From Buxus sempervirens (lineage: Eukaryota > Streptophyta > Magnoliopsida > Buxales > Buxaceae): a stretch of 64,000 bases of DNA. Below the pieces are notes generated by a model. That model made no database searches. It worked only from the letters and a program-made list of their open reading frames with translations, and was not told the origin of the DNA. Where the stretch lies: assembly GCA_947561395.2 (NCBI GenBank), contig OX387185.1, positions 23,875,866 to 23,939,865 of the forward strand, in the 5' to 3' direction. Positions 15,395 to 63,062 of the stretch are shown here, piece by piece. Numbering within the stretch: the stretch's first letter is position 1; each line of letters begins with the position of its first letter. The translations under genes and the position numbers were made by a program.

Positions 15395-17896
15395 CTATTG
15401 GACTTTTTTTTTGGAAGCCGCGTCAGTTTGCCGAACTAACGCTGCTTCAAAGGTAAGGGGAGTTTCCTCCCAATTGTTCAGTACAAAATTTTGGGGAGCA
15501 GGGGAAATAGGGAAAGCCTGCTCTTCAAACCCAGCATCCGATGCCATCATCACCGGGTGGGTACTGCCCTTTTCTGCTGCAGGGCCCAGTTCAGAAATGA
15601 CCTTGTCTGGAACCTTTACTGCGGCCCAGTCAATAAATGGCAGTTCCATGTCTGCCCCTGTCTTTTCGCCCTCAGTCATGGCGAAGAAGGCTCCAACATC
15701 TTCAGAATAGTCTGACTGCTGCTCGGGCTGTGGTCCAGGCCCATCCACTGCTTCCAGTATTGGAGATGGGTTATAGGGTTGTAGGGCCGAAACAAAAGGC
15801 TTTTGAAATGGGTTGACATTGTAGTAGGGAGGTTTTGATTGGTCCATAGGAGGAGAAATTTGGATTATATAAGCGGGTTTTGGGAAGTTCACCCTCAGAT
15901 GCGGGAGTTTTCCTCTGCTTCTGCTCTCCCCTTCTTCATGTTTCATTCTCCTCCAACCTCTGGGCTTGAAGCCCAACCCTACCTTTGGGACTAGTTTCTT
16001 AGCCATGATTGGCTCCACCATCCCCTGCAGATTGATCCCCAGGCCTTTCCCTGGGTGAAAGTGGTATTTCTCCATCACTTTCTTGACCATCCTTTCTGCA
16101 GTGGTCCCCTTTTCCTTCTTTTTCTCACACCCCCCAGGTATGTAATTTACCGCCTCAAATTGAAATGAGTGGAATGCAATCTTGTCAACAGTCAAGTCCA
16201 CATTGATTAATGGTACATCAGGTGACACAATGGGCGGCACCAAGTTTTCGGCTAGGACTGTTATCACCCTTTGCCCTCTTACATATTTCACCCTTTGGTG
16301 GAGCGTGGATGGTATTGCCCTAGCCGAATGTATCCACGGCCTTCCTAGGAGCAGATTGAATGCTGCGAGTATATCCATCACCTCAAATGTGATGTTGAAG
16401 ATATTCGACCCAATTGTGACCGGCAGTTCAATCTCCCCTAGGGAGTGGGTCTTGGAGCTATCAAAAGCCCTTACTATCCGCCCATTTCTTTTGATCCTTG
16501 ACTGGTCCAGACCCAGCTTGGTAAAAGTGATTAACGGGCAAACGTTTAACGCCGACCCGTTGTCAATTAAAACCCGTGCAATCATGCAGCCCTTACAAAG
16601 CATAGTGATGTGCAAAGGGTCCACATGATAACACCCACCTGGGCTGATCTCACCCTCTGAGAAACTTATCACATTATGTGACAAGATTTGACCAACCATT
16701 TTACCAAGCTGGTCTGGATCAATTGTTTGGGATACGTGTGCACTCTGTAGCACCCTTAACAATGCATCCCTGTGGTTTTCAGAATTCAGCAAAAGGCCCA
16801 GTATTGAAATCTGGGCCGGGACCTTGTTCAGCTGATCCATAAGATTAAATTCACTCCTTTTTATTATTTTTATGAGGTCGGCTGCCTCATTTTCTGCACC
16901 CTGGGGGGTGTCTTCTCCTATTTTATTTTTTCCCTTCTGTTTTATTTTTTCTTCATTTTCTTTTTTTTCTTTCTCTACTTCTGTCTCTTTTTCTTTCTCT
17001 TCACCCCCTGCACATCTCCCTGACCTCGTCATGAGGTTCACCTCCTCCTGGTTCGGGTTCCTGACCATTGGAACCGTAGCCGTGATTCCCTCGCTGTAGT
17101 TCCATGGTACAGCGGCCTCTGAATAGGCTAATTTAGGGATGTCAACCACTAGTGGCTGGAGTTTGGACCGGGATGTATGGGCCGGTTTAGGGATAGTATG
17201 GGCTGGCTGCACATTTACAACCAAGGGTTGAAGTTTGGAATTTGTGGGGACAGAAGAAGTGATGGAAGCAGTGGTGGGGTCAAGATTGATGACCAGGGGA
17301 GCCTTAGACGGCTTGGATGGAGAATAAGTGGGTGGACTGCAATTGAAGACCAATGCGGGCCTTGCAGTATTCATCTGGGTCATAAGAGATGAGACCCGGT
17401 TCAAAGAGGAACTTATGTCCTCAGCAGCTGTATTATTTTTTTGGGAGACCATGTTGATCTCCTCCTCTTCCTCCTTTGGGAAAAATCGGACCTGGACCGT
17501 GGTCCCCACGGGAGCTATGAGCTGTGATGGGTCGAAGGCCCTTCTCGTGGTGGATATGGCTGTGATGGAGTTGGATGGGCCTGCCCCATTGTGGTAAGGC
17601 AGAGGGTTCTGCCCAATATCATTCCCGGACGGGGCCGGTGCAGCAGTGTTGAACACTAAGGCCTTCTGGTCCAACAGGTCCTGGACCGCATGCTTCAATA
17701 CCCAGCAGGTATCGGTAGAATGCCCCGGTGTACCCATGTGGAAATCACAGGTGACCGATGTGTCAAAATTTCTCCCCTTCGGGGCATTTGGGTTAGGCTC
17801 CTTCAGCGTCAAGTATTCCCCTTTCAGCAGGGTTGGCAGTAGTTGGGACAGAGATATCGGGAGAGGAGTGAAGACTCGGTTCTTCCTTGCTGCGAA
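15395..17896 (-). pseudogene. E1 gag C-terminus, protease and G-patch region
   Basis: It is open from just after a TAG at 17897-17899 to a TAG at 15395-15397, so it lacks its own natural start. Near its beginning a CDFHMGTPGHSTDTC zinc finger has the C-H-H-C spacing of Tat gag. A protease motif LIDNGSALN lies at about 16545-16570. Downstream, at about 16020-16075, KYHFHPGKGLGINLQGM resembles a G-patch. The end, with LPFIDWAAV and LNNWEETPLTFEAA, is the usual Tat linker to pol. Next to the stop is a run of nine A on the coding strand. Confidence 0.82.
15404..15412 (-). promoter_or_regulatory. A-run at the gag-pro/pol frame boundary of E1
   Basis: Nine T on the + strand give AAAAAAAAA in the coding sense, two codons before the gag-pro stop. 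Pol is open in the -1 frame relative to gag-pro. The homologous E2 run has ten A and is also out of frame. This could be a programmed or slippage site, or simple homopolymer decay. Confidence 0.45.
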
Positions 17897-19099: not shown

Positions 19100-19309
19100 G
19101 GCTCTTGCTTTGGATCTGGTCACGGGAGCAATGACTGCAAATAAGTGCACCTGGGTCGAAAGTAAATGTACCTGAGGAAAAATGAATAGAACATGTTAGC
19201 TTCCATTTAAATTGAAACACACCTCTATAAATGTAGACAAATAGGTCAGGGGAACACCAATCCAGATTTTTCTCTTTTTTTTTTTGTTTTTTTTTTGTTG
19301 TTTTGATTT

Positions 19310-20625
19310 TGTGTTGGAATATTCTAGGGCTTCCAAGGGTCCCAAATTTAAAAATTTTTTTTTGATTTGATTGATAAAAATAACCAACCAAGGTTTTCAT
19401 GGAATATTCTAGGGCTTCCAAGGGTCCCAATTTTTTTTTGATTTGATTGATAAAAATAACCAACCAAGGTTTTCATGGAATATTCTAGGGCTTCTAAGGG
19501 TCCCAATTTTTTTTGATTTGATTGATAAAAATAACCAACCAAGGTTTTCATGGAATATTCTAGGGCTTCCAAGGGTCCCAATTTTTTTTTTTTTGATTTG
19601 ATTGATAAAAATAACCAACCAAGGTTTTCATGGAATATTCTAGGGCTTCCAAGGGTCCCAATTTTTTTTTGATTTGATTGATAAAAATAACCAACCAAGG
19701 TTTTCATGGAATATTCTAAGGCTTCCAAGGGTCCCAATTTTTTTTTGATTTGATTGATAAAAATAACCAACCAAGGTTTTCATGGAATATTCTAGGGCTT
19801 CCAAGGGTCCCAATTTTTTTTGATTTGATTGATAAAAATAACCAACCAAAGGTGCCTTGAAATATTCTAGGGCTTCCAAGTATCCCACAAATGTTTTGAT
19901 TTGATTGATAAAAATAACCAACCAAAGGTGTCTTGGAATATTCTAGGGCTTCCAAGTATCCCACAAATGTTTTGATTTGATTGATAAAAATAACCAACCA
20001 AAGGTGTCTTGGAATATTCTAGGGCTTCCAAGTATCCCACAAATGTTTTGATTTGATTGATAAAAATAACCAACCAAAGGTGTCTTGGAATATTCTAGGG
20101 CTTCCAAGTATCCCACAAATGTTTTGATTTGATTGATAAAAATAACCAACCAAAGGTTTTCATTTTTTTTTATTTGATTTGATTGATAAAAATAACCAAC
20201 CAAGGTTTTCATGGAATATTCTAGGGCTTCCAAGTGTCCCACTTTTTTTTGATTTGATTGATAAAAATAACCAACCAAGGTTTTCATTTTTTTTTGATGT
20301 GATTGATAAAAATAACCAACCAAAGGTTTTCATGGAATATTCTAGGGCTTCCAAGTGTCCCACTTTTTTTGATTTGATTGATAAAAATAACCAACCAAGG
20401 TTTTCATTTTTTTTTTGATTTGATTGATAACCAACCAAAGGTTTTCATTTTTTTTATTTGATTTGATTGATAAAAATAACCAACCAAGGTTTTCATGGAA
20501 TATTCTAGGGCTTCCAAGTGTCCCACTTTTTTTGATTTGATTGATAAAAATAACCAACCAAGGTTTTCATTTTTTTTTTTGATTTGATTGATAAAAATAA
20601 CCAACCAAAGGGTTTTTTTTTTCTT
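19310..20625 (-). repeat. E1 leader tandem array, unit about 76 bp, hairpin-bearing
   Basis: About 18 copies of a unit contain GATTTGATTGATAAAAATA on the + strand, and about 14 of them carry a complete hairpin segment. On the element strand the segment reads TTGGAA-GCCCTAGAATA-TTCCAA, with arm variants CTTGGAA/TTCCAAG and TGGAA/TTCCA. A poly-A stretch of varying length closes each unit. The array lies between PBS and gag, in the inferred leader intron. Open frames through it are repeat artefacts. Confidence 0.93.
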
Positions 20626-20946
20626 CTTCAAATTTGCTGAATTTTCTCAGTTTTCAAGTTCCAGAGTTTGATTGACACATGTTTGAGTTGAGTTGGTGTC
20701 AAAAATATGACACCTTGGTTTCCTCTTTGATTTTCAGACTTAGGTTAAACCCTGAAAGAATATTTTATTTTATTCATTTTTTTGTTTTTTTTCCTTTTGT
20801 ATTTTTTCTCTTTTTTTTTTTTTGATTTTGTATTTTTGGGAACATTTCTTATGTTCTTTTCGGGGTGCCTAAGGATTATCCACAGTGTTTTAGGCATTTT
20901 ATTTTGAAAATTTGGGCTGAAAAGCCAATTTGTGCATTTTTTGAAT

Positions 20947-21060
20947 GTATCCGGTACACTATTCCGGATAAGAATATGCCTTATTGTATCCGGTCAACCT
21001 AACCGGATATCCGCATATGTCTTTGTATCCGGAAATATGTACCAGATACGATTAGAGCTG
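20947..21060 (-). repeat. E1 palindrome cluster in the leader, 39-bp period
   Basis: GTATCCGG begins at 20947, 20986 and 21025, exactly 39 bp apart. Each unit is an inverted repeat of the form TATCCGGT - 7 nt - ACCGGATA, the third imperfect. Confidence 0.9.
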
Positions 21061-21359
21061 TTATTAACCGGCCTGAGTTGCCGGTTATTGCCGAAATGGC
21101 CCTTTTTTGACTCATTTTTTCACCAGATTAGTTTTTTTTCATTCCCAATTGATATTCACCTTAATTTGACCTTCAAAACTTGCCCCAAATTGGGCTTGGA
21201 CATTATATTTGCAAAATCCCCAAATTCATGAAAAGAACATGGTTTTACCTTGCCACCTTGTATTACCTTCACATTATACCTTGGCCTGTAAAACATGCAA
21301 ACGGCCTTCCCACATTTACACCCAATTTCCCCAAACGCAATTGTGTGCTTTTAGCCGAA

Positions 21360-24460: not shown

Positions 24461-24616
24461 GGCAAGGGCTAAGGTCATTGGTAGACACAAATTAATGTCT
24501 AGAACCCCTCCAACCTAAACCCTAAGGTTATTTCCGCGATTTCCCCTCATTTAATGAGGGACATGATGGTAAAAGTGAAAAACTCTCGGAAAACCCTAAT
24601 TTTGAGCAAACTTAAG

Positions 24617-24772
24617 GTATCCGGTATATCAGACCGGATAACAAAGGGCCTTAAGGTATCCGGTACATGGTACCGGATACGCTAATGCTCACATGTATCC
24701 GGTATGAGTATCCGGATACGGGAAAGAGTACTTGTATTCGAATTGAGTATCCGGATACAGGTAAAAGTCTAT
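24617..24772 (-). repeat. E1 palindrome cluster in the LTR, 39-bp period
   Basis: Units begin at 24617, 24656, 24695 and 24734, each exactly 39 bp apart. The form is GTATCCGGT - 7 nt - ACCGGATAC; the fourth left arm is degenerate (GTATTCGA). The cluster lies in U3, upstream of the TATA box. Confidence 0.92.
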
Positions 24773-27245: not shown

Positions 27246-27726
27246 GTGGGAATATGGGTTTGTATGATTGTGGGAAGGCCGTGTGCATGGCATACAAACC
27301 AGGGCATAATGCGGATGCCATATTGAAGGTAAACAAAGTAACAAGGTAACCCTATTGCTTTGCATTATTATCATGTAATAGGGGTGTCATGGTGCCCATT
27401 GGTTGGGGACAAAATTGGTCCCAAATATGTTTGTTCTTAAGCATGGTGTAGCCCATAGGAAGAGTCTCTAACTCTGTTTAGGATCAATCCTACCCTATGT
27501 ACACACAAGAGGCAACAAAAGGGTACCGAATTCTTGAGTATGGTGTCAATTTGGAGGGTACATGTACCTTCCTAAACATGTGTTTTAGCAAAAAGGCCAA
27601 GGTCCACTTTGGGACAGTTTAGAAGCCTGACACTGGGTGAACCGTACGTTTGGATGAACAATTAAAGTGATCAAATCATGTAAAAACTGGAAAAATATAA
27701 CAGGGTTCCGTAAAACCGCATTTAGT

Positions 27727-27853
27727 ACACGGGCTGGGCTTGCCCGTATTAGTTATACGGGCTAGGCTCGCCCGTGTTTTCCATACGGTCACGGCTTGCT
27801 CGTAATCTGAATACGGGCAGGGCTGGACCGTACTGTGTATACGGTTTTCTCGG
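27727..27853 (+). repeat. E2 palindrome cluster in the leader, 28-bp period
   Basis: ACGG cores start at 27729, 27757, 27785, 27813 and 27841, exactly 28 bp apart. Most units are inverted repeats ACGGGC - 7 nt - GCCCGT, some imperfect; the last is a partial unit. Confidence 0.93.
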
Positions 27854-28006
27854 AATATTCAACTTTAATCAGTTTTTCCCACTAAAATCTTCCTTTAACC
27901 TTTAAATAATGATAAAGGGAAACAAGTTTGAATAAAATGCTTCAAAAAAAAAAAAAAAAAACAACAACAAAAACAAAATAATTGAAAAAAAAGATGTGAG
28001 AGAAAG

Positions 28007-29105
28007 GTTCCTTGGGCTTCTAAAGCCTTTGAATTTCAGACTTTTTCAAAACTCTTGGGCCTCTGAAAGCCTTTGAATTTCAGACTTTTTCAAAACTCCT
28101 AGGCCTCTGAAAGCCTTTGAATTTCAGATTTTTCAAAAATCCTTGGGCCTCTGAAAGCCTTTGAATTTCAGACTTTTTCTCAAAAACTCCCTGGGCCTCT
28201 GAAAGCCTCTGAATTTCAGACTTTTTCTCAAAAAAAAAAAAATCCTTGGGCCTCTGAAAGCCTTTGAATTTCAGACTTTTTCTCAAAAAATCCTTGGGCC
28301 TCTGAAAGCCTTTGAATTTCATATCTTTTTCTTTGGGCCGTCTAAAAGCCTCTGAATTTTAGACAAATCTTTTTTCTTTGGGCCGTCTAAAAGCCTCTGA
28401 ATTTTAGACAATCACCTTTTGGGCCGTCTATAAGCCTCTGAATTATAGACACATATCCTTTTTGGGCCGTTTAAAAGCCTCTGAATTTTAGACAATCATT
28501 TCTTTGGGCCATCTAAAATCCTCTGAATTTTAGACAATCATTTCTTTGGGCCGTCTAAAAGCCTCTGAATTTTAGACAATCATTTCTTTGGGCCGTCTAT
28601 AAGCCTTTGAATTATAGACACATATCTTTTGGGCCGTCTAAAAGCCTCTGAATTTTAGACAATCATTTCTTTGGGCCGTCTAAAAGCCTCTGAATTTTAG
28701 ATAATCATTTCTTTGGGCCGTCTATAAGCCTCTGAATTATAGACACATATCCTTTGAGCCGTCTATAAGCCTCTGAATTATAGACACATATCTTTTGGGC
28801 CGTCTAAAAGCCTCTGAATTTTAGACAATCATTTCTTTGGACCGTCTATAAGCCTCTGAATTATAGACACATATTCTTTGGGCCTCTGAAAGCCTTTGAA
28901 TTTCAGACTTTTTTCAAAGATATCCTTTGGGCCTCTGAAAGCCTTTGAATTTCAGACCTTTTGCAAAAATATCCCTGGGCCTCTGAAACACTTTGAATTT
29001 TAGACCTTTTCCAAAAATATCCCTAGGCCTCTGAAAGCCTTTGAATTTCAGACATTTTCCAAAAATACCCCTGGGCCGCTGAAAGCCTTTGAATTTCAGA
29101 TCCTT
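28007..29105 (+). repeat. E2 leader tandem array of about 25 hairpin units
   Basis: Units of about 41 to 50 bp begin GGGCC and contain a stem, a 9-nt loop (GCCTTTGAA or GCCTCTGAA) and the complementary arm. Three stem classes occur: TCTGAAA/TTTCAGA (outer units), GTCTAAAA/TTTTAGAC, and GTCTATAA/TTATAGAC (interior, for example 28426-28450). Both arms change together. The array lies between PBS and gag, inside the inferred leader intron. Confidence 0.95.
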
Positions 29106-29114
29106 TTCTCTTTT

Positions 29115-29149
29115 TGTGGGACCTGTTGGAAACCCTAGAATATTCTAAC
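29115..29149 (+). repeat. Single-copy relative of the E1 76-bp array unit in E2
   Basis: GTGGGACCTGTTGGAA followed by ACCCTAGAATATTCTAAC matches the hairpin part of the E1 unit. It occupies the position next to gag, where the E1 array also ends. Confidence 0.75.
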
Positions 29150-29280
29150 AATTCAATTCAAAAAAAAAAGAAGCAAATAAAGAAAGAAACAAATCCAAAC
29201 TCGTGTTCACCCAGCTTGCACATAGGCATACATAGGCATGCGAATGAGATTAAATTGGCACTGATATTTTCTCTTTATTT

Positions 29281-29287
29281 TTCCAGG
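29281..29287 (+). promoter_or_regulatory. Splice acceptor candidate upstream of E2 gag
   Basis: TTTATTTTTCCAG|GTACC has a good pyrimidine tract and lies 54 bp before the gag ATG. E1 has TTTTTCCTCAG|GTAC at the same place. Confidence 0.55.
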
Positions 29288-29340: not shown

Positions 29341-30226
29341 ATGAATCCCATTGAGACTGAAGCTGATGCTCCTCACCCAGATATTGTCCTGCTTCAGGAG
29401 CAAGTGGCAGGACTAGCCCGAATGCTAGAAAACATACTGTCAGTACAGGCCCAGAATCAAGCATCCACTTCCAACCCTGCACCTCCACCACAAATCAATA
29501 TTCCACCCCCAGTACAACCAATTCCTGAACCCATCCATGAAACCACTTATGAACCTATGTTGACCAAGGATGAAACAGTTGAATCAGAAAAGGCTAAGGA
29601 AAAGGAAAAAATGAGGGAAGAAATGGAAAAGAAGTTCATGCACAGGCTGGAGATGATCCGGATGAAATGAGGGAGGTGAAAGGGATACGTAACTTTGGGG
29701 GCACCAATTTTGAAGATCTGTGCCTATACCCCGATGTATGTCTACCGGCCAAGTTTAAATGCCCAGATTTTGATAAATATGATGGCACTGCTAAATCCGG
29801 GATGACGGCATACTAATTCAACTCTTCCAGAGGAGTTTAACTGGAGCTGCTTTGAAGTGGTTTACCACTTTGGATCATGGGAAAATAAGAAGGTGGAAGG
29901 ATTTAGCAGATTCCTTTTTGGCACAATACAGGTTCAACTCTGAGATTATACCAGATAGGTATGACATGATGAGGATGACAAAGAGAAATGATGAGACCAT
30001 AAGGCAATATGCTAAAAGGTGGAGGGAGTTGGCTGCACAAGTTAAGCCACCCGTGGGAGAACCAGAAATGATTTCAACCTTCATCAGCACACTGGGGCAA
30101 CCCTTTTACAGTCACTTGGTGGGTCAAACTACCACCAACTTTGCTTCCCTAGTGCAAGTGGCAGACAGAATTGAAGATGGGATCAAGTCTAGGAAAATAG
30201 CTGATTACTCTGCAGTGTTGAACTAG
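29341..30226 (+). pseudogene. E2 gag, N-terminal part, broken
   Basis: The ATG at 29341 starts MNPIETEADAPH, then the coiled coil LQEQVAGLARMLENIL and a proline-rich segment, as in E1. A frameshift near 29665 and a deletion near 29790, after the YDGT motif, separate this from the gag core. The core at 29852-30226 has LKWFTTLDHG, RWKDLADSFLAQYRF and RYDMMRMTK. A TAG at 30224-30226 (VLN*EAST) replaces an expected glutamine codon. Confidence 0.83.
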
Positions 30227-32478: not shown

Positions 32479-34484
32479 AGGTTTTAATGAGCCTTCGTCT
32501 TCAGGAAAAGACTTTTTAGAAGGCTCTCAAAAAACAACAAAAGATTTTTCAATTTTTTCTAGAAAAATTAAATTTTTTCAAAAAGGTCCAAACCACTTAT
32601 GAACCATAAAAGCAAACGGAATTGGATCGGGTTGAGTATGACTTCGACCTCGAGCTCGACTTTGACCTAATGGGGGTTGAGGAAGAGACCGAGGACGAAG
32701 AAGACGACCATCCAAAAGAAATCACATATGTAAGGACGTGTGCCTCAGGACATTTGGAGTTGCCACTGCCTGAGAGGTGCAGGCAGACACAAAGGGTTTG
32801 CCTAACCGGGTCTAACTTTTCTGGTTTGTGGCTTATTAGAGATTTGGTTAAGTTCTTGGTTACGTCCGGGGAAGTCCGAAGACACCTTGGCCTGCCCCGT
32901 CGGTTCGACTGGTCCCTCAGGTCTCCCTGGTTTTGAGTCAACTATCTCGGAGCGTCATGAAAGGGGGTCCAACCCAATATTGAAGAGACCATATCAATAA
33001 ATCTAGAGACCGAAGATGACCCAAAAATAGTGAAGATTGGGGTATGCCTATCTGAGGTACAGTGTGATGAAATGATACGATTCTTGACTGATTATGAAGA
33101 TGTATTTGCATGGTCGTATCAGGATATGCCGGGGTTAGACACTGATATGGTTGTGCACAAGCTACCAATTCTGCCAGTTAAACAGAAATTGAGAAGGTTG
33201 AAACCTGAGTGGACATTAAAGGTCAAAGATGAAGTGGTTAAACAATTCCAAGCAGGATTTTTTGCAGTCTCCACGTACCCCGAATGGCTTGCAAATATAG
33301 TGCCAGTGCCAAAGAAGGATGGAAAGGTCCGAATGTGGGTAGACTACAGAGATTTGAACAAAGCAAGCCCAAAGGATGATTTTCCACTTCCACACATCGA
33401 CATCTTGGTGGACAACACTACTGTACATAGCCTCTTTTCATTCATGGACGGTTTCTCTGGGTACAATCAGATTAAGATGGCTAAGGAGGATCAAGAGAAA
33501 ACGGCTTTCATTACACCTTGGGGTACCTTCCACTACACTGTCATGCCATTTGGGCTTAAGAACGTTGGGGCAACCTACCAACGGGCCATAACAGCCTTAT
33601 TCCATGATATGATCCATAAGGAGATGGAGGTCTATGTGAATGATATGATAGCCAAATCATGTGAAGAAGAATACCACTTGATCAATTTGAAGAAGGTGTT
33701 TGACCGACTCAGGAAATACAGTCTAAGGCTTAACCCTGCAAAATGTGTCTTTGGGGCTACATCAAGAAAATTGTTGGGATTTATTGTAAGTAGAAGGGGA
33801 ATTGAGATCGACCCAGCTAAAGCCAAAGCAATAATTAAAATGCCCTCACCTAGAGCAGAGAAGGAAGTTCGTGGTTTTCTTGGAAGGATTCAGTATATAA
33901 GCCGGTTCATAGCACAACTCACTGCTATCTGTGAACCAATTTTCAAGCTTTTGAGAAAGAATAACCTGATGGTCTGGAATGACGATTGCCAAGAAGCCTT
34001 CGATACAATAAAAGAATATTTATTGAACCCACCTGTGCTAGTGCCATCAACTCCAAGAAGACCACTGATTCTACACTTGTCAGTTTTGGAGACGTCGATG
34101 GGGTGTGTCTTGGGACAGCATGATGACACAGGCAGAAAGGAAAGGGCGATTTACTATCTAAGTAAAAAGTTCACGAAATATGAAGCAAAGTATTCCCCTT
34201 TGGAAAAGACCTGTTGTGCCTTAGTGTGGACAACTCAGAGACTGAGGCACTATTTCCTTAGTCACTCCACATTATTGATATCTCGAATGGACCCATTGAA
34301 GTATTTATTTGAGAAACCAGCATTAACCGGTAGAACGTCAAAGTGGCAGCTGTTACTCTCTGAATTTGACCTCACATATATCACTCAGAAGGCAATTAAG
34401 GGTCAAGCCATCGCTGATCATTTAGCTGCACATCCTCTACCAGAATACCAACCCTTGAAGAAAAATTTCCCTAATGAGGCAATT
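32451..34484 (+). pseudogene. E2 pol, first part (RT and first RNase H), damaged
   Basis: Pol resumes at PFPEGFNEPSSSG and continues past the acidic DYDFDLELDFDLM-like stretch. About 210 bp of unrelated sequence interrupts at about 32721-32933. A one-base deletion follows near 32960. From 33030 the frame is open and encodes RT and RNase H closely similar to E1. The catalytic YVDD is YVND at about 33636-33650, so a catalytic aspartate is lost. A deletion and TGA at 34485 end this part. Confidence 0.88.
32721..32933 (+). other. Insertion of ~210 bp in E2 pol, origin unknown
   Basis: It begins at about ACATATGTAAGGACG after PKEI and ends before GAGTCAACTATC. No terminal repeats or TSD were recognised. 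Confidence 0.55.
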
Positions 34485-36225
34485 TGAAAGCTCGTAGCAA
34501 ATGTTTTTCGATGGGGCCGCTAACATGAATGGAAATGGAATAGGGGCAGTTTTGATCAAGCCAGATAGGTCACATATCCCAATCGCAGTGAAGTTGAGGT
34601 TCCAGTGCACAAATAATATTGCGGAGTATGAAGCATGCATAATTGGGTTACAAGCAGCCTTAGACCATGAAGTGGAGGAACTTAACGTATATGGAGATTC
34701 GAGTTTTATCATCTTCCAAACAACTGGTGAATGGAAAACCAAGGATCACAAACTGATCCCCTATCACCAGTATTTGGAAGACATAAGCACCAAATTCACT
34801 CGAATTTCCTTCAATTATATGCCAAGGGCCAAGAACCAATTCGCAGATGTGCTAGCCACATTGGCTTCAATGGTCAATATGCCAGAAGGTGTTGATATTA
34901 GACCACTGGAAATTGAATTCAGAGATGAACCTGCTTATTGCCTTGTTCTAAAAGAAACACCAGAAGAAGAAGTACCATGGTTTCAAGACATTAAGAACTT
35001 CCTAAATGATCGGAGTTTGCCAGAAAATGTCACTTCTACAGAGAAAAGAACAATACAGAGGTTCGCAGGTCAGTTCTTACTAAGTGGTGGACAATTGTAT
35101 AAGAGATCACACAACGATATCCTACTCAGATGTGTTGCCAAGACCGAGTCAAAAAGATTAGTTGAAACTGTACATGGAGGAGTTTGTGGACCCCATATGA
35201 ACAGGTACATGCTTGCCAAGAAGATTCTGCGATTGGGATATTACTGGTCGACGATGGAGCACGATTGCTATATACATGTCAAAAGGTGTCATTTATGCCA
35301 AGTGTATGCTGATAACAAGAATGCACCCCCAAGTGAATTGCACAACATGACATCTCCATGGCCCTTCTCCATGTGGGGTATAGACGTCATTGGAATGATC
35401 TCTCCAAAGGCATCAAATGGACACAGGTTCATCCTTGTAGCAATCGATTATTTCACTAAGTGGGTAGAAGCAGCCTCATATGCAAATATCACAAGTAGCC
35501 ATGTTATTAAGTTTTTGAAGCACAATATCATTTGTCGCTATGGTTTGCCAAGTGCCATAGTATCAGACAATGCTTCAAACATTAAGAACAAGGATATGAG
35601 GAAGATGTGTGAGCAGTTTCAGATTACCCATCACAAGTCAGCTACGTACAGACCTAAGATGAATGGGGCAGTGGAAGCAGCGAATAAGAATATAAAGAAG
35701 ATCATTCAAAAGATGGTAGTGAGTTTCAAAGATTGGCATGAAATGCTGCCACTTGCTCTACACGCCTATAGAACCTCGATCCGGACTTCTACTGGGGCAA
35801 CCTCGTATTCCTTAGTATATGGGATGGAAGTAGTTTTACCAGTGGAAGTGGAAATCCTTTCACTAAGAGTGCTAATGGAAGTTGAATTAGAAGAAACTGA
35901 ATGGATACCGTCAAGACATGATCAACTCAATTTGATAGAGGAAAAGCGTTTGAAATCGCTTTGTCATGGCCAATTGTATCAGAAGAGAATGGCCAGGGCT
36001 TACAATAAGAAGGTGAAACCCAGAACTTTCCAAGAAGGAAATTTAGTATTGAAGAAAATTTTACCCTTTTTGGAAGACCCTCGTGAAAAATTCAAACCAA
36101 ATTGGGAAGGGCCTTATGTTGTCAAAAAGGTCCTGTCAGGGGGTGCTCTCATCTTAACAGAAATGGATGGGAAAGATTTTCCTGAGCCAATTAACTCTGA
36201 TGCAGTAAAGAGATATTTTCCTTGA
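34485..36225 (+). pseudogene. E2 pol, second part (second RNase H and integrase)
   Basis: A TGG-to-TAG change lies at about 34495 before MFFDGAANMNG. The frame 34501-36225 is then open for 574 codons. It holds the archaeal-type RNase H (FDGA, AEYEA, YGDSS, ADVLA), the integrase zinc finger HGGVCGPHM...CHLCQ, the integrase core (GIDVIG, VSDNAS, GAVEAANKN) and the C-terminal module ending RYFP. It matches E1 pol closely. The integrase looks intact but has no start of its own. Confidence 0.88.
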
Positions 36226-37167: not shown

Positions 37168-37324
37168 CTAATCCCTATCCCCTAACTACTCCTCAAGCTT
37201 CCTAATCTGAGCCGCCTAAGTCGCAATGATTCTAGAAGCTCTCTCTGCATCTGGATCGCTAAAAAAGGAGATAACCTCATCTGAAAGAGATTGCTTAATC
37301 TTCAATACCCTAATGTCAGCCAGG
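37168..37324 (-). pseudogene. E2 antisense gene 1 (DUF7745-like), 3' end left of E4
   Basis: On the - strand it matches the last about 50 codons of the E1 gene (IKQSLSDEVISFFSDPDAERAS...IRKLEE). It has two extra TAGs, at positions corresponding to Q and R in E1. The gene continues at 56207 beyond E4. Confidence 0.82.
37320..37324. repeat. E4 target-site duplication, left copy
   Basis: CCAGG precedes the 5' LTR and matches 56202-56206. Confidence 0.95.
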
Positions 37325-40300
37325 TGTAAAACCCCGATTTTTCACCTAATAAATAAATAAATAATAAATAAAAGAAAATATGAGTTAAGTCCTAGTTAAA
37401 ATAAAAAGTGAAGATTTAGAGGATAATTAATTCAAATAAGTTCTAAGTTGAAGATAAAGAAAGAATTTTAATGAAATTAGCCTAAAAGAATAAAAAGGGT
37501 ATTTTGGTAATTTTCAGAAAAGGGTAATTAGTAAATAGATCATCAAATAATAATTAGAATTAGAAAATAGAAGAAAACAAATTATTTTGACAAGTTAGAA
37601 ATTAAAAGAAATTAATAAAAGCCTAAAAGTGGGAAAAAGGGTAATTAGGAGATTTCACGTCTTAATTTGGAGAAAATAAGGTTTTAAGTGATAGAAATGT
37701 TTAATTTAATATTTTGCACGAAATTAGGTTATTTTCATGAGTTTAGATAATAAGAAACTTAATTAGTATTATTTAAGTTGAAAATAGAAGGTGGAAAAAA
37801 AAAGTAGGAATTAAATTAGAAGGATTAGACATTAACTAGACCATGGTTGGGTTAGCCCAAATTAAGTTAGCCAATTAGGGTTTGTTTAGGATTTCTAAAG
37901 CTTAGTATAAATAGGAGGCTAAGGTTAGAAGAGAGGGGATTTTCGTGGGTTTCTTATGGAGAGAAAAGAGGGAGAGAAAGGAAGGAGGTCTCTAATGGAG
38001 GTGTCTGACCAGCCACCATCAAGATGCGATCGGGGAAAATCCGTACGGTGGATCGCCTTCAAATTTGGAGGTTTTGTTCGTGACTGATAAAACTACATTA
38101 TGAACGGTGGAGATTTGAATTGGAAGAGTCTAGCTTGGTGCGGTTGGGAGCAACATTCTGGTCCAGAATTAGAAGGTGTAATGGAAGAAGGATTTAGCGT
38201 ATAAGGCAAGTAGTAACCCTTGGAAAACGTGAGGAATTGCATGATTTGGTTTTCTGTGATTTCATATGGTTGAATGGATTAGTCGAAACAGTATTTACAT
38301 GAAATCAAATTGTTTATATTTTAGGGTTTTGTGTTCTTGAAGAATTTGCTAAAGTAAGGAAGAAACTTGGTTTGATTATGAAATAAATTATAGGATGGTA
38401 TTTAATTAATAAGAATTGATCTAGAAGGCTTTAGGAATGTTTTAGAATGTTATTAGATCAATTTAGACCAAGAAAACATAAAGCAAAAGCATAAGAATCC
38501 GAAATTGTAAAATCTGGAAAATTCTATTAAAAATTGCACGAGCGCCCAGGATCGCCTAGGATCGCTCAGCCCTGTAGAGGTAGGCGCTCTATGCAGAATT
38601 TGTAGATTTTGGGGATTTTGTAATTCGAATAAATTCCCAATAATTCTTATGATTAGTTAAGCATGTTAGCATCTTTATAAGGACCTAATTAAGCTATAAA
38701 AATTATAAAATTAATTGGGAAAGATTAAGCAATAAATAGAAGGTTATAATGAAAGGATTGTTTATAAAAGAGTCAAAGGGTATGGATATTGCTAGAAATA
38801 ATACTACTGAAATTTATAGCTTACAAACATCTTTTAAACTTCATTCTAGGTCTGTAGAACATGCTGGAAAAATAAAATACAGAAAATTCAAATTGAAACT
38901 AGCTTAGGTGCTAAGGCAGGAAATTGGATTCTAATAAAGGGATTAAGAAGGAAAAGTTCAAGCATGATTTGATTTACTTTTATTTGGGCTTTAAATATGA
39001 ATATTGGCTACTGGATGTGCATAAACTTTAAGTTGCATCGAACTTATGATTCATGGGTTTATTTTGAATATAATTAAAGAATTGCATCTGTTATCATGCA
39101 AAAGGCTCTGTTTGGATTATTGAGGATTGAAACATGGTTTTCACTTGGAATTGAATACTTTGGTATGGATTGGTATGTGGTATGATATTGTTCTCTTTAA
39201 TTTTACGGTTGGGTGATACGGCTTCTGTGGTAGAGTTGATACTATCTTTTACGGCAGAGATGGGTAATCCTCTGTGTAGAGATGTGTAATCCTTTACGGG
39301 TAAAAGTGCGTATGCCTCCTACATTAGCGTGTCCTCCCGTATGTGGTTTTATCGTGGTTTGTGTCAGTGGGCTTAGCTGTATATGGATCCATAGTTTTGG
39401 CTGGTTAGCTAAGTGGTATTTAGTTTGGGTTGATTTACTCCTATATTGCGAGCGCGCTTCCCTTTGCAAGTTAGTTTGCTCTGGGAGGGTCCTATGTCTG
39501 GAGGGACACCCCGGTGAGCCGCTGGTGATTCCCTGTACATGTGGATAAGCGACCACACTCCATGTATTGATTCTGGTGCTGCATGCTGGTGGTACGTCCA
39601 ACTCTGCGGGGTTCGTGCGCAATAAGTCGGTGACTACGGCTCTTGCCTAAGCTGCGCTGCATGGGGCTTGAGTATCATCAAGTAGCACTGCCCCTAAGCC
39701 GCACGGTGGAACAGCATTTAGTAGAGTGTCATCTCAAATACTTATCATCTTTGTGAGTCCTGCAATGGCACGTGTTTTATCGCTTTGTCGGTTTTACCTC
39801 GTTAACATCAAGCTACTGGTATTTATACATGATCGTCTGTTTTATCGCTTTATTTGGAATTGCCATGAATAACTTGGATTTCTCGTCTTATCGTTGATTA
39901 ATCGAATACCTCATGACTATTTGCTTATATTGGACTGTTTCAAATTGCATGCACCTGCTACTTGCTGAGATGTAAATCTCACTCCGTTTTCCCCTATATT
40001 TTTCAGGTTGCTTGGAGAGATCGCGAAGTTGGGGTTTTAATTTGATGGGTAGAATTATAATTGGTATTAATGTCACATGTTGATTAGATAAACTTAATTG
40101 TGAATTGAATTGAATATATTGATTAAAGAATTGTTTATTTTATTTGGCCACCATAACTCTGATGTAATTGATTTATAAATTTTAAAATTATTGTGAATCT
40201 TGGTATGTATCTGACCCCAGCTTCGTGGTAACATCTCGAGTTTGATTGTTGAATCGGACTTGGGTTGTTACAGTAGCGAACCGGGTTCGGGTTGGGTGCT

Positions 40301-40332
40301 GGTTTGCACTGACCCGGGTTCGGGGCGTTACA
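37325..40332 (+). repeat. E4 5' LTR
   Basis: It is 3,008 bp and TG...CA bounded. U3 is AT-rich and unlike E3/E5. A TATAAATA lies at 37906-37913, a short CpG-rich module at about 38536-38590, and a block at about 39340-39720 that is strongly similar to the E3/E5 LTRs. The open frames at 39242-39622 are in that block and not credible genes. Confidence 0.95.
37906..37913 (+). promoter_or_regulatory. E4 LTR TATA box candidate
   Basis: CTTAGTATAAATAGGAGGC resembles the TATA context of the Tat LTRs. It lies about 580 bp inside the LTR. Confidence 0.55.
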
Positions 40333-40815: not shown

Positions 40816-43152
40816 TGTAAAACCCCGAATTTTACTTAAATAATAAATTAGATTAGTAAATAATATTACTGAGGGTTATGATCGATGGGAATATTTTATT
40901 CTTGTAGGGGGTGATCAGTTTAGTGAAGATCCAGAATTAGACGCAGATCTGACCGTCCGATCTTGAGATATCAAGGTACGTATTTTAATTGGGCGAGGTG
41001 TATGGGAGAGTTTGCATGGGAGATGCATGGGATCAGGGAGTATATATATGCATTAAAATAACCTAATCGTATTCTCGCTCGTATTATTCAGCCGCAAACG
41101 ACGAGAGTTGAAACGACCGAGAAGAGAAGAAAGAGAAGGAAGGGGGAAGACCAAGGGGACTTGCTCAGAGCCTTGCCTTGCAACTGAGGAGAGGTTTGGG
41201 GGTTTGCTGTTCAGAAGAGAAGAGGAGAAACGCGTATACGAGGTAGGTGACACCGTTTTGGTTTTGAAATTGGATTTTTCCTTGGTTAATCGCAAATGCA
41301 TGTTTCTATGATATGTAATGTTGTATTTAGTTAGCTAAGCATGTTAGAAATACACTAGAATGAGTTTAGACGAGAAAAATCGTGATTTAGAACTATTTCG
41401 GCTCGATTTCGCACGACCGCCGACCTCGACTGTGCTCGGCGCTCGTCGGCGATCCTCGGCGCTGGTTGAATAAAATTAGGGCGCCGTAGACCGCGAGAAG
41501 ACGGACCGCGGGCGCTCGAAAATACACGACCGCTGACCTGGGACCGCCAGGGCGATCCTAGGCGCTCTCAACAGAATTTCCAATTTTTCCTAATTTCGAA
41601 CCTAATTCAATTCTAAACTATTTTTAGACAATTTTAATGATTAATTAAGGTGCTTTAAGACCAAAATAAACTACCTAAACCCCTGTTTTACAGAAAAACA
41701 AATTAGGGAGATATGTAGGACAATAGTTGCCAAGTTTTGAAGGTAAATGAGAAACGTGATTTTGGAAAAGCCTAACTATCATTTGACTATCTAAATACCT
41801 CTAAATGACATTATAAATCAGAATACTTTCTAAAGAGAATACTGAATTCAGATGAATAAATATTGAAGTAAATGTACAGATATAACCATTATATGCCGCT
41901 AGGCACCAACCCTTATAGAATATGACACTTTAGGGAAGTTTTGGAGTCTAGTGGGCATAGCTGGTTGTGGATCCATAGTCGTAGCTAGATAGCTGAGGGA
42001 TATGTCATTTGAGTTGAGTTACTCCTATATGCGACGCGCTTCCTTTGCAAGTTAGTTTGTCTGGGAAGGTCCTATGTCTGGAGGGACACCCCGGTGAGCC
42101 GCTGGTGATTCCCTGTACATGTGGATAAGCAACCACCTCCATGTATTGATTCTGGTGCTGCATGCTGGTGGTACATGCCAACTTTGATGGGTACGTGTGC
42201 AATAAGTCGGTGACTACGGCTCTTGTCTAAGCTGCGCTGCATGGGGCTTGAGTATCATTAGTAGCATCGCTCCTAAGACGCACGGTGGTATAGCAATTGG
42301 TTGAGAAACATCTCAAAAGGTTTATCTAACTTTGTGAGTCCTACAATGACCCTGAAATCATAAAACTTGTTATTATTGTGGTACGTGCGGGAGGCATGTG
42401 TTTGGGATATTGGTTGGATGTGACTGTTTAGTACATCCTGGCAATGCATGAATTATGTTACTGATTTGACTAAGGTATTTTCATATTAAACTTGCTGGAA
42501 TTCATCTCTAGAACTGTTTAGTATATTGTTTTGTATTTACGAATGATACGAATGATTATACGAGCCTGATTAATCGATGTGACTTATTCGTGCATGAACT
42601 GCTACTTTCCGTATATTAACTGTTTAATCATGCATGTGTTACCTACTGGGATATTCGTATCTCACCCTACTGTTATTCCATTTTTTTCAGCTGATACGCG
42701 AGAGGGGGATCTCTTAGACTTCCAGGGAGAGATAGCTGAGTATTCTCCAGAGGATTACTATTATCCCGATCTTATCTGAGGTGGATTGATGTTATAGACT
42801 TAGCATTTTAATTGGTTCATTATCATTAATTGGATTTGATGTATGAGAGAGACAAGAGAGAGTTAGTAACCAATTCATACTACCAGACTTTGATACTATT
42901 GATTGATGGTCAAGCTTCATGCTTGTTTGATGATTTTAATCTACACTTCCGCACATACTTGTTTCCGCAACTCTGATGGATTATATATGGATTGGATTTA
43001 CTTTCTTTGGTCTGGTATGTTATTGATGTTGTGATTGATATGGGCCAGTAACACCTCGGATTTGGTTGTTGAACTAAATTCGGGTTGTTACAGTAGCGAA
43101 CCGGGTTCGGGTCAGGTGCCGGTTTGGACTGATCCGGGTTTGGGGCGTTACA
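40816..43152 (+). repeat. E5 5' LTR
   Basis: It is 2,337 bp. It contains a TATATATA stretch near 41041, a donor-like GAG|GTAGGT at 41242/41243, a CpG-rich module at about 41410-41570 and the conserved LTR core at about 41940-42300. The small ORFs 41053-41311, 42005-42202 and 42579-42779 recur in the other LTR but lack coding support. Confidence 0.95.
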
Positions 43153-43156
43153 GAGA

Positions 43157-43168
43157 TGGTATCAGAGC
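43157..43168 (+). other. E5 primer-binding site (initiator-Met tRNA type)
   Basis: TGGTATCAGAGC lies four bases after the LTR, as in E3 and E4. Confidence 0.93.
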
Positions 43169-43278
43169 AATGGTCCTAACCTTAGAATTAGCCAAACTTT
43201 AGGGGAATGGGATTGTGAGTACGCTAGATAGAACCCCTAGAATTATTGGATTCTAACAAGTGGAATTGAATTTTGCAG

Positions 43279-46200
43279 ATGGCTGGCAGGGGACGACGTG
43301 CTAGAGTTGATCCTATTGAGGAGGAGCCGCAGGATGTTCCATTACCTCCACCACCTCCAGGGGGTGATATATGGACTGTTGTTAGCAGCCTGGCAGAGCT
43401 TCTTGCCAAGGAGAGAGAGGAGAGGCTGAGCCAGCAGGGAAATGGCGGAAATGGTGGCAATGGTCAGGGAGAGGAGCCTGTACACGAGAGGGCCATACAT
43501 ACGGCCAAGGATCTCGAGCAGTTCAGGAAGTTGGATCCACCTATCTTTAGTGGACGACCAGATCCTATGGAGGCTGAGAGATGGCTGATGCGAGTCGAGT
43601 GGATTTTTGAGGCCATGGGATGCCCGATGGACAGGAGAGTGCGATTGGCAGCATTCTTGTTTGAGGGAGAGGCAGTGCATTGGTGGACAGCCAGGAAGAG
43701 GCAGGATCCACAGGCTACGTACATGACTTGGGATAGATTCAGAGAGGTCTTCTATGACCAGTACTTTTCTGAGGAAGTCCGGCTCAAGAAGGAGCGGGAA
43801 TTTATGGAGATTACACAGGGAGGCCAGACAGTGGCTCAGTACGAGGCTAGATTTGCAGCCTTGTCTTGATTTGCACCTCACATGACACAGGATGAGCGGA
43901 GGCTGACTTCACATTTTGAGCGGCGTCTGAAGCCTGAGATTAGGAGTATGCTGACCGTACTCCTGTGCACCGAATTGAAGGACGTGGTACGTAGAGCCAC
44001 TAGAGCTGAGAGTGACTTGGAGGCTAGAGCGAGTCAGAGCAGAGCTAGGCCGCCTACGAGGCCGGCAGATCAGAGAGGTTTCCTTAGTGGGAACAAGAGA
44101 CCCAGAGACTGGTCTAGGGCAGAGCCTGCGGGAGGACAGTATAGAGCAGCTCCGAGGGCATGTGGCAGTTGTGGCAGATACCATGTACCTGGACCGTGTG
44201 TTGCAGCGCCAGGCACCTGCTACCGATGCGGTAGGCCGGGTCACAGGATCACGGATTGTCGGTTTCCTACTAGTTATCAGCCGTTAGCAGTGCCACGACC
44301 GGCATTACCATCGCCAGAGACCGCGCCTGCTTTTCCACAGAGGCCACAGTTTCAGCAGCCAGCTCAGAGAGCACCGGTTGGACAGAAGCCCCAGGGCAGA
44401 GGATCAGTTCAGAGAGGAGGCCAGAGGCAGACAGTACCTGCTCAGCAGCAGCCAGCGAGGGTATATGCAGTGGATGCACATGAGGAGCGTGAGCCCGATC
44501 GTGTGGAGGATATTGAGGGTGATCCCGAGACACCTGAGTTGATTGGAGGTATTCTCTTCATCTGTGGTAGATCAGCATGTGTTCTGTTTGATTCTGGTGC
44601 TTCCCATTCTTTTATATCGCCTGCTTGTGCACAACGGATTGGTTTGTCACCCACTGAATTGGATGCTGTTTTGTCTGTGCACACACCTTTGGGAGAGTCT
44701 ACTCGAGTGGAGCATATGTATAGAGACTGTATGATTAGATTGGGTAGATTAGAGTTGTCTGGTGATTTGATTGCCTTAGACATTGGAGGTTTTGATGTGA
44801 TATTGGGGATGGATTGGCTATGTAGACACCATGTGACATTGGACTGTTATGCGAGTACAGTGATAGTTAGAGGGCCAGATCAGACCACTCATTGTTTCAA
44901 ATGTGAGGGGTTGAAGTCTCGGATTGGTCTGGTAGCATCTGTGATAGCAGAGGAGCTTAGGAGTGACACCCTTGTCATCTCCGATGTGCCTGTTGTACAG
45001 GAGTTTGTGGATGTGTTTCCAGAGGATTTACCTGGATTACCACCTGCTAGAGGAGTAGAGTTCAGGATACAGTTGATGCCTGGTACGGCTCCAGTTTCGA
45101 AACCACCCTATAGGCTTGCGAAACCAGAACAGGAGGAACTTAAGAAACAGTTAGATGAGCTCCAGGAAAAAGGTTTCATCAGACCGAGTATGTCTCCGTG
45201 GGGCGCTCCAGTTCTATTTGTCCAGAAGAAGGATGGTAGCATGAGGATGTGTATCGATTATAGGCAACTGAATCAGGTAACAGTGAAGAACAAGTATCCG
45301 TTGCCTAGGATTGATGACCTGTTTGACCAGTTAGGAGGAGCATCTTGGTTCTCCAAGATAGACTTGAGGTCAGGATATCATCAGGTGAGAGTAGCAGAGG
45401 AGGACATAGAGAAGACAGCTTTTCGTACACGCTATGGGCATTATGAGTTCTTGGTTATGCCTTTTGGGTTGACCAATGCCCCAGCTGTTTTCATGGACCT
45501 CATGAACAGAATTTTTCATGCATACTTGGACAGTTTCGTAGTGGTGTTCATTGATGACATCCTAGTATATTCTAAGACCCGAGAAGCACATGTAGGGCAT
45601 TTGAAGGCAGTATTGCACACTTTGAGAGACCACGGGTTGTATGGGAAATTTAGCAAATGCCAGTTTTGGCTAAGGCAAATTTCTTTCTTAGGTCATGTTA
45701 TCTCAGGAGAGGGTATATCTGTGGACCCTGAGAAGGTTAAGGCAGTGGCAGAATGGCCTAGGCTTACTACAGTGATAGAGGTCAGGAGTTTCCTTGGTAT
45801 GGCACGTTACTATAGGAGATTCATTGCAGGATTTTCGTGTATAGCTGCACCGTTATCTAATCTAACCAAGAAAGCAGTGAAGTTTCAATGGGATGAAAAA
45901 TGTGAGCAGAGTTTTCAGGAATTGAAGCAGAGATTGACTACTGCACCAGTGTTGATTGTGCCATCCATGGATGAGGCATTTGCAGTATATTGTGATGCTT
46001 CTAGGATAGGCTTGGGATGTGTATTGATGCAGCAGGGCAGAGTTATAGCGTATGCTTCGAGATTGTTGAGGCCACATGAGAAGAACTACCCTACCCACGA
46101 TTTGGAGCTTGCAGCCATAGTCTTTGCATTGAAGCTATGGAGGCATTACCTTTATGGAGTAGAGTTTGAGATCTTTTCTGATCATAAGAGCTTGAGATAT

Positions 46201-47976
46201 CTGTTTTCACAGAAAGACCTGAATATGAGGCAGCGAAGGTGGATGGATCTGCTAAAGGATTTCAAGTTTACTTTGCAATACCACCCTGGTAAGGCAAATG
46301 TAGTGGCAGATGCTTTGAGTAGAAAAAGTTCAGTTGAAGGTCAAATAGCTACTTTAGCATCTTTCATGATGAGCCAGTGTAGATTGATTGATTCAGTCAG
46401 AGATTGGCAGGGAGAGTTTAGCATGCCACAGGATGGAGTAATTCGAGTTGCTCGTGTTCAGATTGAACCAGATTTGGTTCAGTTGATTCGGGAGAAACAA
46501 CTGATTGACCCACAGTTGATTCAGACTAAGGGATTGATGAGTAGAGGATCTGAGGCAGCTGTAGACTTTTCAGATAGAGATGGGCTATTGAGATATAGAA
46601 GTCGTATTTGTGTTCCAGCTGATGAGGAGATTAAGGAGAAGATATTATCAGAGGGTCATAGATCGAAGTATGCAGTTCACCCAGGAAGTACGAAAATGTA
46701 CAAGAACTTGAAAGAAATCTATTGGTGGTCAGGAATGAAGAGAGAGATTGCAGAGTATGTGGCAAAGTGTTTGATATGCCAGCAAGTAAAAGCTGAACAT
46801 CGGAAACCACCTGGTTTACTTCAGTCGCTTCCTATTCCAGAGTGGAAGTGGGAGCATGTAACTATGGATTTTGTATCTGGACTACCACTGACAGCAAGGA
46901 AGGAAGATGCTATTTGGGTTGTCGTGGATAGACTGACTAAGTCTGCGCATTTCTTGCCTATGAGCACTACACAGCCATTGAAGTCTTTAGCTGAGTTATA
47001 TGTCAGGGAGATAGTGAGACTTCATGGAGTGCCGGTTTCTATAGTGTCTGATAGAGATGCACGATTCACAACACGCTTTTGGCTTGCATTTCAGGCAGCT
47101 TTGGGGACTAAGCTTAATTTCAGCACTAGTTATCATCCTCAGACAGATGGACAGTCCGAGCGTACCATTCAGACTTTGGAAGACATGTTGAGATGCTGTG
47201 TTATGGATTGGGGAGGCAGTTGGAATCAGCACCTACCATTGGTGGAGTTTGCCTATAATAACAGCTATCAAGCGAGTATTCAGATGGCACCATTCGAGGC
47301 ACTTTATGGAAGACCGTGTAGATCCCCAGTGTGCTGGGTGGAAGTTGGTGAAAGACAACTCATTGGGCCCCAGATTGTACAAGATAGCATTGAGAAGGTG
47401 AATCAGATTAGGCGAAACATGCTTACAGCCCAGAGTCGTCAAAAGAGTTATGCAGATACCAGAAGAAGAGACTTGCATTTTGAAGTTGGAGATTGGGTAT
47501 TTCTGAAGATATCACCATCTCGTGGAATCAAGAGGTTTGGAAAGAAAGGCAAATTGGCTCCAAGATATATAGGTCCGTTTGAGATTAAGGGTACAGTGGG
47601 ACCATTAGCATACAGATTGGCTTTACCTACACAATTGGAAGGAGTTCATGACGTATTCCATGTTTCTATGTTGAGGAAGTACGTGCACGACCCTACTCAT
47701 ATCATTCAGCATGAACCGATAGTAGTGCGAGGGGACTTGACTTACGAGGAGCATCCAGTTGAGATTTTGGACAGGAAGGAACAAGTTCTCCGTACTAAAG
47801 TAATACCACTTGTGAAAGTACTTTGGCAAAACCACACGACTGAGGAAGCTACATGGGAATTGGAATCGGAAATGCAGAGAAAATATCCCAACTTATTTGC
47901 AGAACCACAAGGTAAATTTCGAGGACGAAATTTTTCTTTTAGGAGGGGAGGATGTAAAACCCCGAATTTTACTTAA
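43279..47976 (+). pseudogene. E5 gag-pol polyprotein with chromodomain, one in-frame stop
   Basis: The ATG at 43279 directly follows the acceptor-like TTTTGCAG. The single break is a TGA at 43867-43869 in gag (ALS*FAPHM), where E3 has CGA. After it the frame is open to 47976: zinc knuckle [14 protein letters not shown], protease DSGA, RT FIDD, RNase H YCDAS, integrase HHCC and DDE motifs, and chromodomain ([11 protein letters not shown]...TWELESEM). The E3 stop between RNase H and integrase is absent here. The C-terminus runs through the polypurine tract into the LTR ([16 protein letters not shown]), unlike E3, which stops at RNFL. Confidence 0.93.
47941..47952 (+). other. E5 polypurine tract
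   Basis: AGGAGGGGAGGA lies directly before the 3' LTR, identical to that of E3. Confidence 0.9.
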
Positions 47977-53154: not shown

Positions 53155-53193
53155 TTAAATTTCGAGGACGAAATTTTTGTTAGGTGGGTAGGA
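53155..53193 (+). other. E4 3' terminal remnant of Tekay pol and polypurine tract
   Basis: AAATTTCGAGGACGAAATTT then TTAGGTGGGTAGGA lies directly before the LTR. In E5 the same stretch encodes the last residues KFRGRNF followed by the polypurine tract. Confidence 0.8.
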
Positions 53194-56100: not shown

Positions 56101-56201
56101 CATCTCGAGTTTGATTGTTGAATCGGACTTGGGTTGTTACAGTAGCGAACCGGGTTCGGGTTGGGTGCTGGTTTGCACTGACCCGGGTTCGGGGCGTTAC
56201 A
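53194..56201 (+). repeat. E4 3' LTR
   Basis: It has the same length as the 5' LTR, and no difference was found in the stretches compared base by base (including the first 600 bp) or in the open frames they share. Confidence 0.95.
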
Positions 56202-62492: not shown

Positions 62493-62610
62493 GTAAAGAC
62501 CTAAAACCCGCATAAGATACACGGGCAGCAGACGCCCGCAAAGGTAATACAGTCAATAGCACCCGTATTCAAATTGCGGGCATGACCTGCTCGCAATATA
62601 AATACGGGCA
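62493..62610 (-). repeat. E2 palindrome cluster upstream of antisense gene 2, ~28-bp period
   Basis: Cores at 62521, 62549, 62576 and 62604 give spacings of 28, 27 and 28 bp. A degenerate unit may precede them. Confidence 0.88.
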
Positions 62611-62957: not shown

Positions 62958-63062
62958 TGTAGACACCCCAAATTACACTACAAAATGAGAAAATAATTGA
63001 AAATATTAATTGGGATTTAAAACAGGTAAAAAATGCATAAAATCTAATCATTTAAGCAATGA

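Follow-up and report, generated by a model that had tools for sequence, protein, structure and literature searches.

Covarying hairpin array upstream of gag in a plant LTR retrotransposon reflects two or three compensated events

The window, that is, the whole 64,000-nucleotide stretch analysed here, is plant-type DNA with nested LTR retrotransposons. One of these elements, E2, contains upstream of its gag a hairpin array of 25 tandem units, 39-55 bp each (28010-29116); a relative of E2, called E1, lies on the minus strand, and the pol regions of the two are 82% identical. The units of the E2 array fall into three stem classes whose arms change together, and the original prediction, made from the letters of the sequence, had taken this agreement as support for a selected RNA or cruciform structure. 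This covariation holds up and would seldom arise under a null in which the unit tree is preserved, but a selected structure does not follow from it. The class-specific spacers mark the classes as clonal, which leaves few independent events; the evidence amounts to two or three compensated events, not 25. A working RNA structure is possible, not proven. The preferred reading, to which we would give an even chance of being right, is that the array is a leader minisatellite that was amplified from quasi-palindromic founders and tolerated by virtue of a leader intron, with hairpins that have no required function.

The predicted arrangement of about 25 units, each a stem, a 9-nt loop, and a stem, is borne out by the 25 units found, as is their division into three classes: 12 units are class 1 (TCTGAAA/TTTCAGA), 8 are class 2 (GTCTAAAA/TTTTAGAC), and 5 are class 3 (GTCTATAA/TTATAGAC), the left-arm words being TCTGAAA, TCTAAAA, and TCTATAA. 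Every TATAA arm faces TTATAGAC, as had been claimed (5/5; loops from 28434, 28603, 28728, 28769, and 28852). By eye, the 7-bp core is fully Watson-Crick in 20 of the 25 units, departs from this by one G-U only in two, and is broken in three; an eighth pair in the 13 class 2/3 units is G-C in 11, G-U in one, and A.C in one. The three units that had been named as carrying a wobble are real (loops 28989, 28686, and 28477), but four units with true mismatches had gone unlisted; their loops are at 28025 (a deletion, with arms unmatched), 28308 (C.T), 28519 (A.C, at pair 8), and 29085 (G.A). A pattern consisting of the loop and part of the right arm, with two mismatches allowed, has 25 matches in the window, where 2.0 are expected. 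Spacer type tracks stem class in 25/25 units, and the spacers, together with the tandem periods found by TRF (Table 1), identify classes 1-3 as clonal lineages copied in blocks. The loop, GCCTCTGAA, contains the word of the left arm once more, and it kept TCTGAA, except at one T/C site, while both arms changed between classes. This loop copy provides an internal control: it did not follow the arms, so the coupling is between the arms. The loop and the 5' flank are near-constant over the classes. A self-complementary GGCC precedes the stem in 22/25 units (counted by eye), and could favor RNA-RNA contacts of two leader copies.

Table 1. Positions of the array blocks and of the features discussed with them
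Feature	Position	Strand	Details
Predicted E1 leader intron	19172..21248	-	alternative donor 21267
E1 leader array	19330..20620	-	14 core copies homologous to E2 unit 26
Predicted E2 leader intron	27346..29286	+	contains whole array; alternative donor 27328
E2 leader dyad cluster	27722..27850	+	ATACGGGC / GCCCGTAT; within predicted intron; z -7.5
Class 1 block, units 1-7	28010..28332	+	units 1 and 7 broken; sense fold z -0.4
Class 2/3 block, units 8-20	28333..28877	+	tandem periods 42/83/125 (TRF); sense fold z -2.3
Class 1 block, units 21-25	28878..29116	+	unit 23 G-U form TCTGAAA/TTTTAGA, unit 25 broken; sense fold z -0.3
Diverged unit 26	29117..29150	+	in register; TGGGACC; stem TGTTGGAA/TTCTAACA, one G-U; 11-nt loop
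First E2 reading frame past leader	29341..29670	+	gag start by E1 homology
E2 pol	33030..36225	+	RT, RNase H, second RNase H (RVT_3), integrase; split over two frames

Covariation was scored on a gap-free alignment of 32 columns and 25 rows, 17 of them distinct. In this alignment 89.7% of cells pair, compared with 82.5% after shuffling, and the covariation score is 0.244 versus 0.112 in shuffles, with none of 500 shuffles as high and slid partners giving at most 0.059. Two pairs, in 11 cells, are changed on both sides, and it is these two that covary, in line with the predicted compensatory changes in two stem columns (G-C versus A-T, and A-T versus T-A). The counts themselves are ordinary: 261/500 shuffles reach two both-side-changed pairs, and 358/500 reach the number of further pair types. 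Because the units are related, a tree-keeping null was used, in which the parsimony changes of each column are placed randomly on the branches of the unit tree (3000 replicates). (This null was built here to mimic a tree-based test and is not R-scape; the spacer was gapped by hand.) With a tree built from all columns, p is 0.022 for summed covariation, 0.010 for pairing, and 0.0017 for covariation over well-paired pairs; with a tree built from flank, loop, and spacer, and thus from no stem columns, the respective values are 0.017, 0.0037, and 0.0003. Taken singly, the two covarying pairs have p values of 0.003-0.03.

On the all-column tree, G-C becomes A-T on the branch that leads to both class 2 and class 3, and A-T becomes T-A on the one that leads to class 3; on the stem-free tree the second change comes earlier and is later reversed, giving three events. 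With so few events, chance has to be weighed, in which case the arms of a quasi-palindromic unit would simply have happened upon two matching changes. The rough probability that both changes are compensatory, 0.002-0.004, is uncorrected for the choice of the array by eye from 64 kb, yet the p values under the tree null and the lack of anything comparable in the slid pairings make chance an improbable explanation. The arms do match among units of shared duplication, a situation that the original prediction had itself named as telling against its interpretation, and fold-back copying and selection are indistinguishable on the data here.

The predicted fold energy of the array is weak. With 60 dinucleotide shuffles for each of the three blocks, the antisense z scores are -1.9, -0.7, and 0.1 (sense values in Table 1). 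Single hairpins of classes 1, 2, and 3 are predicted at -5.8, -7.0, and -7.6 kcal/mol, and their antisense counterparts at -5.3, -6.8, and -7.2 kcal/mol, so similar that strand gives no clue. Mean local stem probability in the whole array is 0.22 for class 1 and 0.66 for class 2/3; at a span limit of 60 the values are 0.53 and 0.97. The frequency of change is similar at stem and loop sites (8 changes over 14 stem sites vs 6 over 9 loop sites on the all-column tree, and 10 over 14 vs 5 over 9 on the stem-free tree). Recent single-arm changes comprise three G-U pairs, three mismatches, and one deletion, the unpaired outcome being about as frequent as G-U. The whole window has no Rfam match at the gathering threshold.

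The related array in E1, at the position corresponding to that of the E2 array, bears on the same question. Its 14 core copies, 13 from a pattern match and the 14th read from the sequence, have 7-bp stems in 4/14 (one with a wobble), a 6-bp stem in 1/14, 5-bp stems in 8/14, and a broken stem in 1/14. Fold z scores of -0.2 and -0.8 give no fold signal. The E1 array was considered as independent support for the hairpins and rejected, since the stem is down to 5-6 bp in 9/14 copies and broken in one more; with E1 mostly lacking the long stem, such a stem is not a conserved requirement. The two arrays are connected by the diverged unit 26, which shows clear homology to the E1 unit (0/2000 shuffles reached the score in either comparison). 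Outside the array, a matrix of the E2 units with the stems masked places E1 units at ranks 1, 3-8, and 10-12 (10/14 copies) and unrelated sites at ranks 2 and 9, and comparisons of the class consensus with E1 or unit 26 give p values of 0.0015-0.048 over six comparisons. These results are suggestive of homology of the E2 array units to unit 26 and E1, and the unit of the array probably goes back a long way as a repeat of the leader.

Selection might nevertheless have acted on a multi-hairpin RNA of the unspliced leader, bound through its constant loop and flank and serving packaging or dimerisation, with stems that drift with compensation. Such an RNA is consistent with the tree-null p values (0.0003-0.02), with a loop copy that is unchanged while the arms changed together, with class 2/3 stems that are predicted to form locally, and with the position of the array within a predicted intron and hence in unspliced RNA only; it is at odds with the weak fold energy, the mere two or three events, single-unit changes without a bias toward G-U, a stem that is mostly missing from the E1 array, and class 1 units that fold poorly in the whole array (0.22). 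We regard it as possible though rather unlikely.

Near the array are GC-rich dyad clusters, whose fold signal is stronger than that of the hairpin array. In addition to the E2 leader cluster (Table 1), clusters in the E1 leader (20940-21095, z -8.1) and the E1 U3 (24600-24760, z -7.1) fold far under their shuffles; further E2 clusters are at 63063-63149, 57845-57985, and 62510-62610. The layout is common to E1 and E2 and the words differ: ATACGGGC occurs 8 times in the window, always in non-coding E2 or its LTRs, and TATCCGG 15 times, 14 of them in the E1 U3 and leader, whereas the six-base cores ATACGG (27) and ATCCGG (33) are more widely spread in the window. To judge from these words, it is as if the U3 and leader sites had switched together. 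The clusters are possibly binding sites for an element-specific factor, by analogy with VANC motifs. Their arms are constant and their loops vary, which is the reverse of the hairpin array. This last point matters for the suggestion that the array units are themselves dyad-symmetric DNA sites for a dimeric protein, their half-sites matching since one protein would read both. The perfect inverted repeats in tandem and the element-specific dyads close by in U3 and leader accord with such sites, but in the array the arms change and the loop and flank are constant, the opposite of what is expected for binding half-sites, and we find this very improbable. A DNA cruciform, the other option in the structure first proposed, was set aside as implausible; stems of 7-8 bp would be too short for it.

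By its domain order and plant mobile domain, E2, the host of the array, is classed as an Ogre/Tat-type Ty3/gypsy element. RVT_3 sits between RT_RNaseH and H2C2/rve in E1, and the order in E2 is identical across two frames; the second (archaeal-type) RNase H between RNase H and integrase, an Ogre feature, is therefore present. PMC6317226 describes the order RT-RNase H-second RNase H-integrase for Ogre and Retand elements, and a plant mobile domain extra ORF in 57% of Ogre elements. The latter feature is found in E2 in an antisense frame at 56962-57723 (-), where PF10536 scores 38.5 bits against a cut-off of 34.9; in the E1 counterpart frame (9589-10005) PF10536 scores 21.4, under the cut-off, and DUF7745 passed. 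The antisense ORF characteristic of Retand, PF04195 (Transposase_28), has no match among the 15 reading frames scanned. A Retand-like identity was dropped for an Ogre-type one in view of the plant mobile domain frame and the description of Ogre in PMC6317226.

Downstream of pol, E2 is split by an element whose LTRs lie at 37322-40332 and 53190-56201 (99.97% identical), and this element is in turn broken by another at 40816-50289. A frame between the LTRs of the element inserted in E2 (50299-51669, -) matches PF20167 (putative plant transposon protein). In E1, an 805-aa frame upstream of pol (15395-17812, -) has a G-patch domain (PF01585, E 8e-7); G-patch is a protease feature in some retroviruses. 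The E1 5' LTR seems, from shared words, to start at 24848 (TGTAGACACC, - strand), within the U3 of the E2 5' LTR and its dyad cluster, and the E2 3' LTR begins at 62958 with the same terminal word. Position 27389, followed by TGGTGCCC, was considered, from the sequence and tRNA features, as a candidate for the LTR end with the primer binding site. A clear counterpart of this candidate end is lacking in E1 and the E2 3' LTR extends beyond the window, so that the array may strictly be leader or U5.

The leaders of E1 and E2 hold probable introns, as judged from splice signals common to both elements. The E1-E2 alignment is good up to CAAG|GTAA (27345 / 21249) and resumes before gag, where each element carries CTGAT/CTAAC resembling a branch point, then a pyrimidine tract and CAG|GTA (29286 / 19172). 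An acceptor pattern (CTRAY, at least 11/14 pyrimidines, CAGG), of standard type but composed after the sites had been seen, has 4 matches on both strands of the window, 2 of them at the homologous E1/E2 sites. The donor-like [AC]AGGTAA has 30 matches, which makes a donor by itself poor evidence; the order of two donors is conserved. Splicing of 27346-29286 would leave the array out of gag mRNA and keep it in genomic RNA. According to PMC6317226, Ogre elements splice between gag-pro and pol, and a review has introns as generally absent from plant LTR elements, with Ogre and EVADE as exceptions; the literature searched on splicing, as far as its text was available, describes no leader intron in plant LTR elements. 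Carried further, the leader could be a facultative intron that parts gag mRNA from genomic RNA, the array a multivalent packaging/dimerisation signal that is recognised by its loop and flank and whose stems drift within the limits set by compensation, and the U3/leader dyads sites that switch in concert between sister elements; this fuller scheme we consider doubtful.

Amplification of a leader minisatellite, the preferred reading, would have begun with a founder unit having the left arm GCCTCTGAAA, this word once more in the loop, and its inverted repeat on the right. Slippage or abnormal strand transfer, during either reverse transcription or replication, would have enlarged the array, and twice a founder whose arms had newly come to match, through a fold-back template switch or a pair of substitutions, would have been copied into many units. 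Both-side stem changes do lie on internal branches and are followed by single-arm decay. Template switching would suit the A-T to T-A flip, and G-C to A-T could have passed via the G-U form still present in unit 23. The array may have been tolerated with spliced RNA making gag and unspliced genomic RNA keeping the array; such a removable position would explain why gag translation is not blocked. The hairpins, above all those of class 2/3, could form and would have no required function. According to PMC7004042, the non-coding regions of Tat/Ogre elements commonly contain tandem arrays, and Tat arrays are thought to arise by abnormal strand transfer between co-packaged copies. Template switching can, according to PMC8794818, alter both stem arms at once; that paper also holds isolated compensatory changes to be uninformative about mechanism, and those of the array are no more informative. 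The marks of template switching looked for in the array, loop inversion and a longer matched tract, are absent. Against amplification only, the founding changes of class 2/3 and the added G of the eighth pair keep or improve pairing, as selection would give, and the constancy of loop and 5' flank and the class 2/3 local stem probability of 0.97 point the same way.

If the leader is a facultative intron with a hairpin array, it would be a concrete candidate for the way in which a plant Ty3/gypsy transcript is divided between translation and packaging. Even if the ordinary reading is right, the array documents cleanly how the two arms of a stem come to be altered jointly, and it is a caution that 25 matched copies may represent just two or three events. 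Searches of viral contigs, genome contigs, and plasmids gave no other copy. The exact class 1/2 hairpin pattern has no match in viral contigs; a looser pattern matches 10 bacterial contigs once each among genome contigs, which is taken as chance. A scan of viral contigs with E1 pol gave no confirmed relative, and plasmids gave 8 distant RT/RNase H matches only, none covering >80% of the query. Among the papers listed on leader arrays, judged by titles and the starts of abstracts, none describes a leader tandem array.

Known systems resemble E1 and E2 in some features and differ in others. Facultative splicing in BARE (PMC3735527) and Ogre (PMC6317226) parts translated RNA from full-length RNA, as the predicted E2 leader intron would, and BARE is described as the first retrotransposon shown to have distinct RNA pools (PMC3735527); however, the BARE intron is in gag and the Ogre intron between gag-pro and pol, whereas those predicted for E2 and E1 are in the leader. 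The VANC-bound arrays of VANDAL elements (PMC5735166, PMC10398659) have element-specific motifs in several co-evolving non-coding regions, comparable to ATACGGGC in E2 and TATCCGG in E1, but VANDALs are DNA transposons with direct-repeat motifs and VANC, and E1 and E2 are retrotransposons with dyads, their motifs known from sequence alone. Hairpins of RNAs altered by template switching (PMC8794818) resemble the E2 array in that both arms of a perfect stem are altered, possibly in one event; the diagnostic footprint is absent in E2, and PMC8794818 regards changes of a single pair as uninformative. The hypervariable arrays of Tat, Ogre, and Retand elements (PMC7004042, PMC11963269) are, like the E2 array, short family-specific repeats in non-coding DNA of the Tat lineage, and are attributed, as here, to strand transfer in replication. 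Those arrays lie between pol and the 3' LTR; the E2 array, upstream of gag, does not have this 3' UTR placement and lies between the 5' LTR and gag, and its units, unlike theirs, are hairpins in three covarying classes.
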